DNA of 64,000 bases, taken from the NCBI GenBank assembly GCA_947570215.1, contig CANOTO010000008.1, positions 1 to 64,000 of the forward strand, given 5' to 3'. The stretch comes from an uncultured Clostridia bacterium. GTDB lineage: Bacteria; Bacillota; Clostridia; Christensenellales; CAG-314. Numbering within the stretch: the stretch's first letter is position 1; each line of letters starts with the position of its first letter. This document shows, piece by piece, positions 11,258 through 58,845 of the stretch. The notes beneath the pieces were generated by a model. The model made no database searches. It was given only the letters and a program-made list of their open reading frames with translations, and was not told the DNA's origin. Made by a program: the position numbers and the translations under genes.

Positions 11258-11280
11258 TGGTGGAGGTGACGGGACTTGCA
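11258..11280. repeat. Distal attachment site (copy of the ssrA 3' end)
   Basis: A 23-base sequence identical to 15839-15861, which is the CCA-bearing 3' end of the tmRNA gene. These direct repeats mark the ends of the integrated island. Confidence 0.85.
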
Positions 11281-11510: not shown

Positions 11511-11545
11511 TTTCCCAAAATTCAAAAATACTTGATTTTGGGAAA
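11511..11545. promoter_or_regulatory. Inverted repeat over the ATPase promoter
   Basis: Perfect 11-base arms TTTCCCAAAAT (11511-11521) and ATTTTGGGAAA (11535-11545) separated by 13 bases. The right arm overlaps the -35 hexamer, as an operator would. Confidence 0.55.
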
Positions 11546-11560
11546 TATAAGTGATATAAT
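11532..11560 (+). promoter_or_regulatory. Promoter of the island ATPase gene
   Basis: TTGATT at 11532-11537, 17-base spacer, TATAAT at 11555-11560, followed by a GGAGG site at 11567-11571. Confidence 0.7.
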
Positions 11561-11576
11561 GCTGATGGAGGTAACA

Positions 11577-12770
11577 ATGAAACTAATTGAACGTGAATTT
11601 TATCTTGAACAGTTAAAACGTGTTATTGGAACGCCTGATATCAAGGTTATAACAGGCGTAAGGCGTAGTGGCAAATCAAAGTTGCTAGAGGCGTTTAAGA
11701 CCTATGTGGAAAACAATATTGATGCATCTAACGTTATTCACATCAACTTCAATTTGGCTCAGTTCGAGAAGTTGAAAGACTATCATGCGTTGAACGAGTT
11801 CGTCGAGAAGGCTTTTGTGCCCAGCAAGCAGAATTTTGTTTTAATAGACGAAGTACAGTTGTGTCCGCAATTCGAATTGACAATCAACAGTCTTCATGCA
11901 TCCGAAAAATACGATATATATATTACCGGCTCGAACGCATTCCTACTAAGTTCCGACCTTGCTACGCTTTTTACTGGTCGTACATTTGAAATAAAAGTAT
12001 ATCCGTTTTCTTTTGCGGAATACATGCAATACTTTGGATATGCTGATAAGTACGATGCACTTAATAAGTATATTAAAGAAGGCGGTATGTCTGGTTCGTA
12101 TCTATATCAAGATGAAAATGCTAAGTACGATTATATTACGGATATTTTTGACACATTAATTGTCCGAGATATAAGACAAAAGTACAAAATAAAGAATCAG
12201 CAGCTAATGGATAGGCTTGTCGATTACTTAATGGACAATGTGTCTAACCTTACTTCCGCACGAAATATTGCCGAAACGCTCACAAGCAATAAGGATAAAA
12301 TCAATCACAAAACAATTAGCGCATATATGCAGTATTTGTGTAATGCTTTTGCGTTTTACAAAGTGAGACGATACGATATACAAGGCAAAAAATATTTAAC
12401 GACCAATGACAAGTATTATTTGAGCGACCACACGTTTAGATATGCCAAGCTTGGCACAAAAAATATGAATTATGGACGGACGCTGGAAAACATCGTAGCA
12501 ATAGAATTATTGCGGCGTGGATATGAAGTGTATGTAGGTGTCCTTTATAAGAAAGAAATTGATTTTGTCGCGCTGAAACGCAACGAAAAAATATATATTC
12601 AGGTCTCGGATAATATAAGTGACGATTTGACTTTCCAAAGAGAAATTTCGCCACTGTTGTCCATCAAGGATGCCTATCCAAAGATGATAATTGCGCGCAC
12701 AAGAAATGATGAGTATTCTTACGAAGGCGTAAGCATCGTAGACATCGCCGATTGGCTAACGAAGAATTAA
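11577..12770 (+). CDS. AAA ATPase with DUF4143-type C-terminus
   Basis: A 397-residue ATP-binding protein of the AAA_14/DUF4143 architecture, common as solitary genes in anaerobic gut bacteria and often on islands. Walker A is GVRRSGKS at residues 27-34, Walker B is FVLIDEVQ with D91 and E92, and TGSNAFLLS plus TGRTFEIKVYPFSFAEY match the sensor and arginine-finger region. The C-terminal part (about 310-397), with LENIVAIELLRRGYEVYVG and a KEIDFVAL core, resembles a nuclease-like fold. Its function is unknown; a toxin or defence role has been suggested for relatives. The start at 11577 is set by GGAGG five bases upstream. Confidence 0.85.
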   Translation: MKLIEREFYLEQLKRVIGTPDIKVITGVRRSGKSKLLEAFKTYVENNIDASNVIHINFNLAQFEKLKDYHALNEFVEKAFVPSKQNFVLIDEVQLCPQFELTINSLHASEKYDIYITGSNAFLLSSDLATLFTGRTFEIKVYPFSFAEYMQYFGYADKYDALNKYIKEGGMSGSYLYQDENAKYDYITDIFDTLIVRDIRQKYKIKNQQLMDRLVDYLMDNVSNLTSARNIAETLTSNKDKINHKTISAYMQYLCNAFAFYKVRRYDIQGKKYLTTNDKYYLSDHTFRYAKLGTKNMNYGRTLENIVAIELLRRGYEVYVGVLYKKEIDFVALKRNEKIYIQVSDNISDDLTFQREISPLLSIKDAYPKMIIARTRNDEYSYEGVSIVDIADWLTKN

Positions 12771-13259: not shown

Positions 13260-13772
13260 ATGATTACCAAAGAACAGATTAGAGAAGACCTTTATAAATT
13301 AATAAAGAATCATTATAATCAAGGCGATTATACAGAGGCGTTGAGGGATGCTATGTTTTTCGTCAAAGATTTATTACAAGAAAAAAGTGGTTTTATTGAT
13401 AAAGATAACACAAAATTAATTGAATCGTCGCTTTTGGGAAAAAATGCAGCGATAAAGATAAATAAGTATGCAACTGAATCTGAAATCAATTTCCAGGAGG
13501 GAATAGGCTTTGCCCTAAAAGGATTGGTGATGCATTTAAGAAACCCAATAAGTCATGAAAGGATCGAATATAGCGAACAAGACGCAGATGCACAGTTATT
13601 ATATATCAATTATTTGATTAACCAAATAGACAATTCTTCGGGGAGGCAATTAATCACCGATTGGTTACAATATTTGCAAAGTAACAGCTTTACTTCATCG
13701 AAAGTTTTTGCACAAGAACTAATTAAAGAATTGCCTAAAAAGCAACAATATGATTTACTTGTTTCTTTATAA
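13260..13772 (+). CDS. TIGR02391/Ymh-like protein with RNPxSHE motif
   Basis: A 170-residue protein. Its core (EGIGFALKGLVMHLRNPISHE, about residues 80-100) matches the TIGR02391/Ymh pattern, a family often found near restriction and other defence genes. The R-x4-H spacing in RNPISH resembles the catalytic motif of HEPN ribonucleases, so an RNase role is possible but unproven. GAGG lies ten bases before the ATG. Its position in an integrated island beside a restriction specificity remnant fits an accessory defence function. Confidence 0.6.
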   Translation: MITKEQIREDLYKLIKNHYNQGDYTEALRDAMFFVKDLLQEKSGFIDKDNTKLIESSLLGKNAAIKINKYATESEINFQEGIGFALKGLVMHLRNPISHERIEYSEQDADAQLLYINYLINQIDNSSGRQLITDWLQYLQSNSFTSSKVFAQELIKELPKKQQYDLLVSL

Positions 13773-13833: not shown

Positions 13834-14361
13834 ATCCGCAAGCGGGGGGGGGCGCTATTAGAAGTTGAGTGGCGCGAGTTTTACATAAAAGATATTTTCC
13901 CAACTATACAGCGCGGAAAAAGACTTGTTCGTGAAAAGCAATCTGCGGGAAATACACCATATGTTTCATCGTCAGCATTAAACAATGGTGTTGATTATTT
14001 TGTTTCAAATAGTGAGAATATACGTCGTTTTGCGAATTGTATAAGTTTGGCAAATAGTGGTAGTGTTGGATCATGTTTTTATGAGCCGTTTGAATTTATA
14101 GCAAGTGATCATGTTACACATTTAAAAAATCCAAAACTGAATAAATGGCACTACCTATTTATTGCAACAATAATGAAACGGCTATCTGCGAAGTATAATT
14201 TTAATCGAGAAATTAGCGATTCTCGTATTTCGCGCGAAAAGGTGCTATTACCGATCTGTCAGAATGGAGAAATAGACTATAGGTTTATGGAAACATTCAG
14301 TAAGAGCATAGCGAATAGCAGATGCAACGATTATTTGAAATATTGCGGTTGTATTTCGTGA
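13834..14361 (+). pseudogene. Type I restriction specificity subunit remnant (single target-recognition domain)
   Basis: The open frame 13834-14361 encodes a target-recognition domain: EWREFYIKDIFPTIQRGKR, then YVSSSALNNGVDYF, ISLANSGSVGSCFYEP and the closing VLLPICQNGEIDYRFMETF, all typical of HsdS-like or fused methylase-specificity proteins. Only one domain (about 175 residues) remains where HsdS has two. No start codon with a ribosome binding site exists; an ATG at 13830 would join the frame if the G9 tract at 13844-13852 lost one base. No methylase or nuclease gene is nearby. Confidence 0.7.
13844..13852. repeat. G9 homopolymer at the N-terminus of the specificity remnant
   Basis: Nine G in a row. 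With eight, the ATG at 13830 reads into the target-recognition domain; with nine it reaches a stop 13 codons on. It is either a phase-variation switch or a homopolymer sequencing artefact. Confidence 0.7.
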
Positions 14362-14566: not shown

Positions 14567-14638
14567 TCAAAAGCGGGTTTCCCGCTTGTTGAGAGGTGAA
14601 GGTGGTGCGGAAATGTACCACCTTTCTTATCCTGCTTA
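14567..14638. repeat. Left arm of a long imperfect inverted repeat
   Basis: Inverted copy of 15071-15138. The outer 25 bases match 24/25 and the inner 13 match fully; between them the sequences differ but each arm keeps its own hairpin (AAGGTGGT/ACCACCTT here). It also contains the hairpin AAGCGGG/CCCGCTT. Confidence 0.75.
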
Positions 14639-14736
14639 TTTTTTTAAAGCAAAAAGCTACCACTTTAACGAGGGGTATTTTTAATAGATTGGGGTATTAA
14701 ATAAATATTTTATTTAGAATAAATGTTCTAAAACTA

Positions 14737-14765
14737 TTGACGTTATTGAAGTGTTGTGCTACAAT
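14737..14765 (+). promoter_or_regulatory. Strong promoter inside the inverted repeats
   Basis: TTGACG at 14737-14742, 17-base spacer, TACAAT at 14760-14765. No start codon with a ribosome binding site follows before the terminator at 14872-14919, so the product is probably a short RNA. Confidence 0.65.
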
Positions 14766-14771
14766 ACGCTT

Positions 14772-14919
14772 GAACAGAATATTGGGTAGTGGGATTCCAT
14801 TGAATGTTATTACTAACGTCTTGTTTGAACTGGACTTGATGAGAAGGTCAAGAGGAGTCTGACGGACAGTTTTTACCTTATGGGGTAAATTTTGTCTGTT
14901 GGACTTTTTGTTTTACTAA
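14772..14919 (+). ncRNA. Putative small RNA of the island
   Basis: Predicted from the promoter at 14737-14765 and a terminator-like hairpin pairing 14872-14887 with 14894-14909, followed by five T. The predicted length is about 150 bases. No family is recognised. It could instead be a leader that reads through to the genes downstream. Confidence 0.4.
14872..14919 (+). terminator. Terminator of the putative small RNA
   Basis: A 16-base interrupted stem (14872-14887 with 14894-14909; two mismatches, two GU pairs) and CTTTTTG at the end. Confidence 0.55.
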
Positions 14920-14996
14920 AAGATTATTTTTGACAATTTTTCAAAAATGGTTGCGAAAACGACGTTTTCGTGAGCTACCACATAGAGGGACATACA

Positions 14997-15021
14997 AAAG
15001 GAGGTGATGCGTATGCTCTGA
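14997..15021 (+). promoter_or_regulatory. Perfect 12-base Shine-Dalgarno and two-codon frame
   Basis: AAAGGAGGTGAT is complementary to the whole 3' tail of 16S rRNA. Four bases later comes ATG CTC TGA (15013-15021), a start-plus-one-codon frame. It may be a ribosome trap or leader element for the gene at 15165. Confidence 0.5.
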
Positions 15022-15070
15022 TTTAACCCACTTAGTAACTAAAAAAGTGGGAGGAATTTATATAAAGAAG

Positions 15071-15138
15071 TAAGCAGGATAAGGAAGTGGGATGTTTTCC
15101 CTACTTCGACTTGCAACAAGCAGGAAACCCGCTTTTGA
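15071..15138. repeat. Right arm of the long imperfect inverted repeat
   Basis: Inverted partner of 14567-14638. Its internal hairpin GAAGT-GGG/CCC-ACTTC differs in sequence from the left arm but keeps the pairing. Confidence 0.75.
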
Positions 15139-15164: not shown

Positions 15165-15533
15165 TTGAAAGATAAAAGCAAAATTATCGGCGTCGAAAAA
15201 CACGTTCGTATTACGAATACGGATATAAGCGATCAGATAGATAGGCTAATGGAACTGCCCGAATATAAGAGTTTCAACAAGGTAGTAAATGATGCTTTGT
15301 TCTACGGCTTACCCAAACTTACAGAAAGCATATTCGGCGAAGTAAAGTTGGCCAAACGAATATTACCACGCAAAGATAGCGGGCGATTTTATTGTGACCG
15401 TCAACAGCAAGTGCAAAAACGGCAAGGTCGAATACAAAAAAATTACTATCACGCCAATGTTACGTCCGTACCTAAAAGGCGTAAGCGAATTAACTTTTTA
15501 CGTGCAAAACCGTATTCGCGAACGCTTCCATAA
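15165..15533 (+). CDS. Small mobile-element protein, ribbon-helix-helix-like, fused out of frame
   Basis: TTG start behind an AAGGGAG site. Residues 1 to about 62 (HVRITNTDISDQIDRLMELP, FNKVVNDALFYGLPKL) look like a small DNA-binding protein of the kind found beside integrases in Clostridial elements. From about residue 65 the frame runs over the integrase remnant, which is read in a different frame, so this second half is meaningless. A deletion probably joined the two genes. The original C-terminus is lost. Confidence 0.5.
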   Translation: MKDKSKIIGVEKHVRITNTDISDQIDRLMELPEYKSFNKVVNDALFYGLPKLTESIFGEVKLAKRILPRKDSGRFYCDRQQQVQKRQGRIQKNYYHANVTSVPKRRKRINFLRAKPYSRTLP

Positions 15534-15838: not shown

Positions 15839-15861
15839 TGGTGGAGGTGACGGGACTTGCA
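15839..15861. repeat. Proximal attachment site in ssrA
   Basis: The 23 bases at the 3' end of ssrA, identical to 11258-11280. Confidence 0.85.
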
Positions 15862-16215
15862 CCCGTGTACCAACGCAAGACTACTTGACTTTCTCCGTAC
15901 GCAGTTTGTCTTTTTATAGTAGCGGACGGAAGACAAACAAACCAACCGTTACTCGTGTCGGAATATATCTCAAACCGTAACGTTCCGCCACAGCCGTTAC
16001 AATTCTATTCGCGCTGTCTTACGCAGAACATTCCGCCGCGCGCCCAAGCGGAAGTCTACGAGCCGGTATTAATTAAGCGGCGTAAGCCATTCCATAGGAA
16101 CGGCTCGTATTTGTGCTATTGTTAGCGTTTAATTTAAGTTTGCCTTATTACGCAGATGCGCTGCGGTACGCTTATCAAATCTCCTTCAACGTCGGGCGAA
16201 TCTAAAAACACCCCC
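15839..16215 (-). ncRNA. ssrA: Transfer-messenger RNA (tmRNA)
   Basis: About 377 nt. The 5' end GGGGGTGTTTTTAGATTCG (from 16215) and the 3' end ACCTCCACCA (to 15839) form the tRNA-like acceptor stem with the CCA encoded. The tag frame is read from 16126 to 16073 and gives ANNSTNTSRSYGMAYAA before TAA. tmRNA with SmpB rescues stalled ribosomes and tags the nascent peptide for proteolysis. The tag ends AYAA where many Firmicutes have ALAA. The 3' end doubles as the island attachment site. Confidence 0.95.
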
Positions 16216-58682: not shown

Positions 58683-58701
58683 ATAATCATCAAATAAATA
58701 T

Positions 58702-58818
58702 ATTCTTTGGGGCGTGGCGCAAATCCACACCGATAGTACAGCCTATGAACGCAGCGTAAGCCGCGCCGATCGGGTGAAATTCCCGAGCCGACGGTAACAG
58801 TCCGGATGAGAAAAGAAT
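58702..58818 (+). promoter_or_regulatory. FMN riboswitch (RFN element)
   Basis: The conserved RFN core is clear: GGGGCGTGGCGCAAATCCAC at the 5' side, GGGTGAAATTCCCGAGCCGA and CGGTAACAGTCCGGATGAGA at the 3' side, closed by ATTCTTT/AAAAGAAT. FMN binding favours the terminator at 58846-58872 and shuts off the riboflavin transporter. Confidence 0.95.
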
Positions 58819-58845
58819 TGTTGACATATTTTTATGCACACGTAC

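Follow-up and report, generated by a model that had tools for sequence, protein, structure and literature searches.

Two facing putative origins of transfer for MobL relaxases on an ssrA-integrated element of an uncultured Clostridia bacterium

A small element at ssrA and its inverted arms

The window, that is, the whole stretch of DNA analysed (64,000 nucleotides of contig CANOTO010000008.1, from an uncultured Clostridia bacterium), contains an ssrA gene whose 3' end, a known integration site, is repeated at 11258-11280, giving two direct 23-bp att repeats (Table 1). The element delimited by these repeats holds three stretches of cargo coding sequence, two inverted arms around a noncoding core, the 5' part of a gene that we call F5 and the end of an integrase gene; no relaxase gene was found in it. 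The integrase remnant shows the motif RTTF...GHS...Y when read by eye and had no Pfam or PHROG match; as this 107-aa C-terminal fragment is all that the element has of such an enzyme, a functional integrase is absent. The window copy may be immobile now, since both its integrase and its F5 gene are truncated, and is either a remnant or reliant on an integrase supplied in trans. A run of nine G residues just upstream of the HsdS-like fragment (13844-13852) is a possible phase-variable tract. The Rfam scan of the window returned the tmRNA and an FMN riboswitch (58699-58821; RF00050, 98 bits) only.

Table 1. Features of the ssrA-integrated element, in window positions
Feature	Position	Strand	Remarks
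Second copy of the 23-bp att repeat	11258..11280		Element runs from 11258 to about 15838, ~4.6 kb
Cargo: AAA_14-DUF4143 ATPase, candidate defence family PDC-S01	11532..12770	+	8.1e-149
Cargo: Hypoth_Ymh / HEPN-like protein	13260..13772	+	
Cargo: restriction specificity subunit fragment (HsdS-like)	13861..14361	+	
Left arm, putative oriT-L	14567..14638	+	Conserved hairpin 1, hairpin 2 and TTATCCTGC
Hairpin 1 of oriT-L, AAGCGGG-TTT-CCCGCTT	14571..14587	+	Arm alignment, covariation
Hairpin 2 of oriT-L, variable, presumed specificity hairpin	14598..14625	+	Covariation
Nick region of oriT-L, TTATCCTG^C	14627..14635	+	Consensus (C/T)ATCCTG(C/T), PMC3772185
Predicted nick, oriT-L	between 14634 and 14635	+	Leading end enters core
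Core between both nick sites, noncoding	14636..15073	+	No homology to most other cores
Promoter-like TTGACG-17-TACAAT with TG, in core	14737..14765	+	Not above shuffled expectation
Right arm, putative oriT-R	15071..15138	-	Arm comparison
Nick region of oriT-R, TTATCCTG^C	15074..15082	-	
Predicted nick, oriT-R	between 15075 and 15074	-	Leading end enters core
Hairpin 2 of oriT-R, unlike that of oriT-L	15084..15107	-	
Hairpin 1 of oriT-R, AAGCGGG-TTT-CCTGCTT, one G-U pair	15118..15134	-	
F5-type gene, 5' part, truncated	15165..15386	+	Ribbon-helix-helix-like N-terminus; position of a MOBL accessory gene
Tyrosine-recombinase-like integrase, C-terminal fragment, 107 aa	15394..15717	+	Homologues are open frames of 400-420 aa
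att repeat at ssrA 3' end, TGGTGGAGGTGACGGGACTTGCA	15839..15861		
ssrA (tmRNA), 3' end is the integration site	15839..16215	-	RF00023, 110.2 bits

An earlier note, made from the letters of this DNA, had described an inverted repeat with arms of about 70 bases, and both arms lie where it placed them. Their outer ~24 bases are the same except for one C/T difference and the inner CTTATCCTGCTTA is identical, while the middles form two unlike hairpins, as that note had also read: GAAGGTGG..ACCACCTT on the left and GAAGT-A-GGG..CCC-ACTTC on the right. The inverted match scored 22; the highest score among 200 dinucleotide shuffles of the surrounding 2.4 kb was 16. Both single strands fold much better than shuffled sequence (z of -12.7 and -11.2), largely because of the inverted repeat itself. 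That stability is what a large structured RNA closed by the arms would display, yet the region had no Rfam match, the cores of different pairs of arms are unrelated or only ~60-90 bp long, and the promoter-like site would begin transcription inside such an RNA; given also the source of the z-scores, we regard this explanation as extremely improbable.

Fold, nick motif and copies of the arm

The earlier note had taken the difference between the two middles for covariation and concluded that the fold matters, a view that holds in relatives. Across 36 aligned arms, 97% of cells pair, a share that drops to 49-58% if the partners are shifted by 1-3 columns, and hairpin 2 contains five pairs with changes on both sides; column pair 36/57 alone is G-C in 17 arms, A-U in 14 and U-A in four. 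This pattern indicates that the arm fold is under selection. Some 90 unique arms, of which two or three are chance matches, have in common AAGCGGG-TTT-CCCGCTT followed by a spacer, a variable second hairpin and then TTATCCTGC.

MOBP relaxases nick at the consensus (C/T)ATCCTG(C/T), directly after an inverted repeat (PMC3772185). The arms have the same layout, with a sequence fitting this consensus immediately 3' of the hairpin. The best reading is that each ~70-base arm is one complete putative origin of transfer (oriT) for MobL-family (MOBL) relaxases supplied in trans. Among the three explanations in the earlier note (invertible promoter, transfer origin and transposon ends), the transfer origin is thus the one that gains support, in a form which that note lacked: each arm alone would be a complete oriT, and the pair two facing oriTs. 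An integron attC-like site was also considered and dropped, as the MOBP nick motif and the linkage to MobL genes account for the arms.

The search for further copies suggested by the earlier note turned up single arms in the window's own genome, in its family and in many gut Clostridia; the whole 572-bp unit has no second copy in the own genome or the family. A pattern of hairpin 1, a spacer of 25-50 bases and TTATCCTG occurred in 16 of 396 genomes of the order, and a reversed-pattern control in none. A looser pattern recovered 69 stretches in GTDB contigs, mostly from rabbit-gut Clostridia together with one isolate, Pumilibacter intestinalis. The arm pattern was absent from IMG/VR and viral contigs; plasmid and phage collections gave no DNA match to the region, and neither the MobL relaxase nor F5 had a match in plasmids.

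Relaxases, accessory genes and paired arms

The relaxases linked to arms are of the MobL type (MOBL family, PF18555; E 3.5e-13 for the Pumilibacter protein), scoring above the MobL cut-off and matching PF03432 weakly. PF03432 was rejected as their family: the weak matches near arms are MobL proteins, which fit PF18555 better. Genuine PF03432 relaxases do exist in these genomes, at loci without a full arm. An arm-type oriT lies upstream of the MobL relaxase at four distinct loci (L144, L145, L146 and L152, whose relaxases form a group of ~445 aa), at L143/L148, which is one duplicated locus present as two near-identical loci in a single genome, and at L151. A variant oriT, ending TTAGCCTGC, was found at L150 and the fragment L147, and neither form was seen at L149. 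The arm is located 0.7-0.8 kb upstream of the relaxase, and at the MobL loci of the genomes searched its outer end always faces the relaxase, so that the relaxase genes would be transferred last.

A small gene, F5, occupies the interval between arm and relaxase in L143/L148, L144, L145, L146 and L152, at the place of the MOBL accessory gene. F5 also follows the right arm of the window element, and the product of the truncated gene (up to about 15386) is 55% identical over 98 aa to the F5 protein adjoining the Pumilibacter MobL relaxase. F5 is of the relaxosome type and, judged from its N-terminal sequence pattern and weak hits, would encode a ribbon-helix-helix-like protein; a PDB profile search gave weak matches, including the ribbon-helix-helix protein NikR (E 1.2). 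AlphaFold models of F5 and of a second protein, F8, were of low confidence, that of F5 being too poor to show a ribbon-helix-helix fold. The window's own genome (G000, 93% complete) yielded no MobL gene; a MobL gene with this type of oriT is present in another genome of the same genus (G007).

Two other genes were seen near arms. In elements of the MobL/F5 type, a PF01555 DNA adenine-type methyltransferase gene immediately adjoins the oriT on its leading side (L082, 4142-5086, minus strand; L120, 2230-3174, plus strand), a position where anti-restriction genes would be expected. F8, of 250-270 aa, is encoded in arm-bearing elements (L049:10887-11702, L071:1547-2296, L088:5246-5995, L107:1582-2331) and is a distant relative of MobV relaxases by weak NCBIfam matches. 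By eye it does not have the usual HxH motif, with RRNLFVYYLP in its place, although a His close to the N-terminus is invariant; it may be an altered relaxase or a partner that has no activity.

Arms recur in three arrangements: (A) a single arm that leads into genes of sigma-like and MobV-like type, followed by a small gene, F7, and the gene for a large serine recombinase; (B) a left arm, core and right arm, often followed by F5 and then by F7 and the recombinase; and (C) a single arm flanked by F5 at its outer end, MobL adjoining in some cases. The window would be either type B minus F7 and the recombinase, or a type B oriT region captured into a tyrosine-integrase element. Single arms outnumber pairs and are found at the same positions, with the proviso that GTDB-contig loci were cut at 8 kb, so that distant partners of single arms may be missed. 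All 18 non-redundant pairs (15, plus the close pairs in L091, L099 and L105) face inward, although they are not independent, most coming from one related group of mainly rabbit-gut assemblies. Their spacing ranges from about 60 bp to 4.1 kb, being usually 340-800 bp and ~60-90 bp in three.

The two arms of a pair also differ in kind. In the 16 bases that directly precede the nick region, hairpin-2 identity is 0.60 within pairs, compared with 0.83 among left arms and 0.72 among right arms. Left arms mostly end in ..GTTGTGGCACTTTCC, like the oriTs beside the L144, L145 and L146 relaxases, whereas many right arms end in ..TACCACTTTCC, which is close to the Pumilibacter relaxase's oriT, or in ..GCCCACTTTCC. 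The pairs accordingly combine arms of different types. This contrast in hairpin 2 is milder in the window pair than in the others. Upstream of the right arm, the cores of L054, L056, L065 and L104 contain conserved, leader-peptide-like tiny overlapping frames (GGAGGTGATACCAATGCAGAAC..ATGACTTCC..). Separately, L039, L065, L088 and L121 share an outer flank at the left arm despite different inner genes (343 bp at about 94-96%, and more than that in two pairs among the four); homology stops 0-4 bases from the arm's outer edge, as if cargo had been swapped there.

These comparisons bear on the other two explanations in the earlier note. Recombination between the arms could in principle invert the segment that they enclose, which does contain a promoter-like site; that note called it a strong promoter, and whereas the site is present and matches at 10 of 12 positions, its strength is not borne out, shuffles of the region averaging 2.5 such sites. 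In 12 related elements with homologous cores, moreover, the core has one constant orientation relative to the two distinguishable arms, whose sequences differ, and no invertase adjoins the arms in the window; an invertible promoter is accordingly highly unlikely. Much the same weight attaches to the idea that the arms are terminal repeats of a small, MITE-like transposable unit. Arm copies at many loci, and a left-flank homology that stops near the left arm's outer edge, are what such a unit would leave. Single arms are the commoner state, however, the right arm keeps a fixed place upstream of the F5, F7 or integrase genes, the window has no obvious target duplication, and the interior of the arm is built as an oriT, a reading at odds with transposon ends as is the linkage to MobL; we consider this idea very improbable.

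Proposed mobilisation in trans and comparison with known systems

We propose, with a probability of roughly 0.8, that the window element is a relaxase-less hitchhiker at ssrA that carries two oriT subtypes and is mobilised in trans by MobL elements. In this model, read from sequence comparison, a MobL relaxase would bind the hairpins of an arm, nick TTATCCTG^C between its G and its C, remain on the 5' end and guide the nicked strand into the conjugation channel. With two oriTs of different subtype on opposite strands and facing each other, the 4.6-kb element would be open to MobL helpers of more than one class and would be, or have been, a hitchhiker borrowing the machinery of other mobile elements. 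An opposite-strand layout would be expected because a relaxase that starts at one of two same-strand oriTs and ends at the other deletes them. Nicking, transfer in trans, the dual helper range and this reason for the orientation are what we infer from the arms and their neighbours.

The deletion argument covers opposite strands; it does not explain the constant inward facing or the closeness of the arms. Deletion bias alone does not predict inward over outward pairs, and the uniform orientation and usual spacing described above, down to ~60-90 bp in three cases, could instead mean that the two inward nick sites act as one joint unit, for instance through opposite-strand nicks in one complex. 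The outcome might be that both complementary strands are led out, that the direction of transfer can be chosen or that the core undergoes a special kind of resolution, and would represent a transfer mode not described for mobilizable elements. The higher frequency of single arms at the same positions and a core length of ~60 bp to 4.1 kb weigh against such a unit, and arms of different type are a better fit to separate recognition, making it unlikely. The preferred reading, two separately recognised oriTs on a hitchhiker, would provide a signature by which to search for the oriTs of a relaxase family that is common in gut Firmicutes, and islands of defence genes without a relaxase could then be recognised as mobilizable.

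Judged from the open-licence literature, this oriT family and the inward-facing pair look undescribed, while the kind itself is known; that literature held no direct match for inward-facing or paired oriTs in integrative mobilizable elements (IMEs). Like IMEs and oriT hitchhikers (PMC5704250, PMC11389934), the window element has att repeats at a conserved RNA gene, cargo and an oriT and no conjugation genes, but it differs from them in its two inward-facing oriTs of different subtype and its truncated integrase. The (C/T)ATCCTG(C/T) sequence just 3' of an inverted repeat is shared with MOBP or IncP-type oriTs (RP4, Ti, H. pylori tfs4; PMC3772185), whereas the relaxase linked to the arms is MobL, with a weak PF03432 match. 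The order oriT-aux1-aux2-rel is the MOBL layout of pLS20, and aux2 homologues precede 387 MOBL relaxases (PMC5313138, PMC5675868); the arm-linked loci resemble this relaxosome in being from Firmicutes and in having, after the oriT, one or two small genes of putative ribbon-helix-helix type together with a MobL relaxase. In pLS20, the founding MOBL plasmid, the nick follows GAATCGGGGGCCGG, which is unrelated to TTATCCTGC; as far as is known, the nick sequence is not defining for the whole MOBL family.

The closest parallel is with the OT49, OT45 and OTUNa oriT-mimic plasmids of S. aureus, which have two or three mimics; the excerpts of PMC4652767 used here describe relaxase-less carriers with opposite-strand oriTs, one differing hairpin (IR2), a ribbon-helix-helix specificity gene beside the oriT and captured oriTs before a truncated accessory gene, all of which have their likeness in the elements studied here. 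According to those excerpts, two-oriT (pWBG749-type) plasmids always have the oriTs on opposite strands with mostly different IR2 hairpins, the ribbon-helix-helix-like SmpO is the specificity factor, relaxases delete whatever DNA lies between two oriTs on one strand, and a truncated smpO follows some of the captured oriTs. The S. aureus plasmids differ in relaxase family and oriT sequence, and the present elements are integrated; a close inward-facing pair unit is not described for these plasmids in the same excerpts of PMC4652767. Each S. aureus point nevertheless has a counterpart or a natural reading here, deletion and specificity by analogy. Opposite-strand oriT pairs of differing specificity would be common to S. 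aureus plasmids and to integrated elements of Clostridia, and this recurrence suggests a general rule, that hitchhikers collect oriT subtypes of which only opposite-strand pairs persist.
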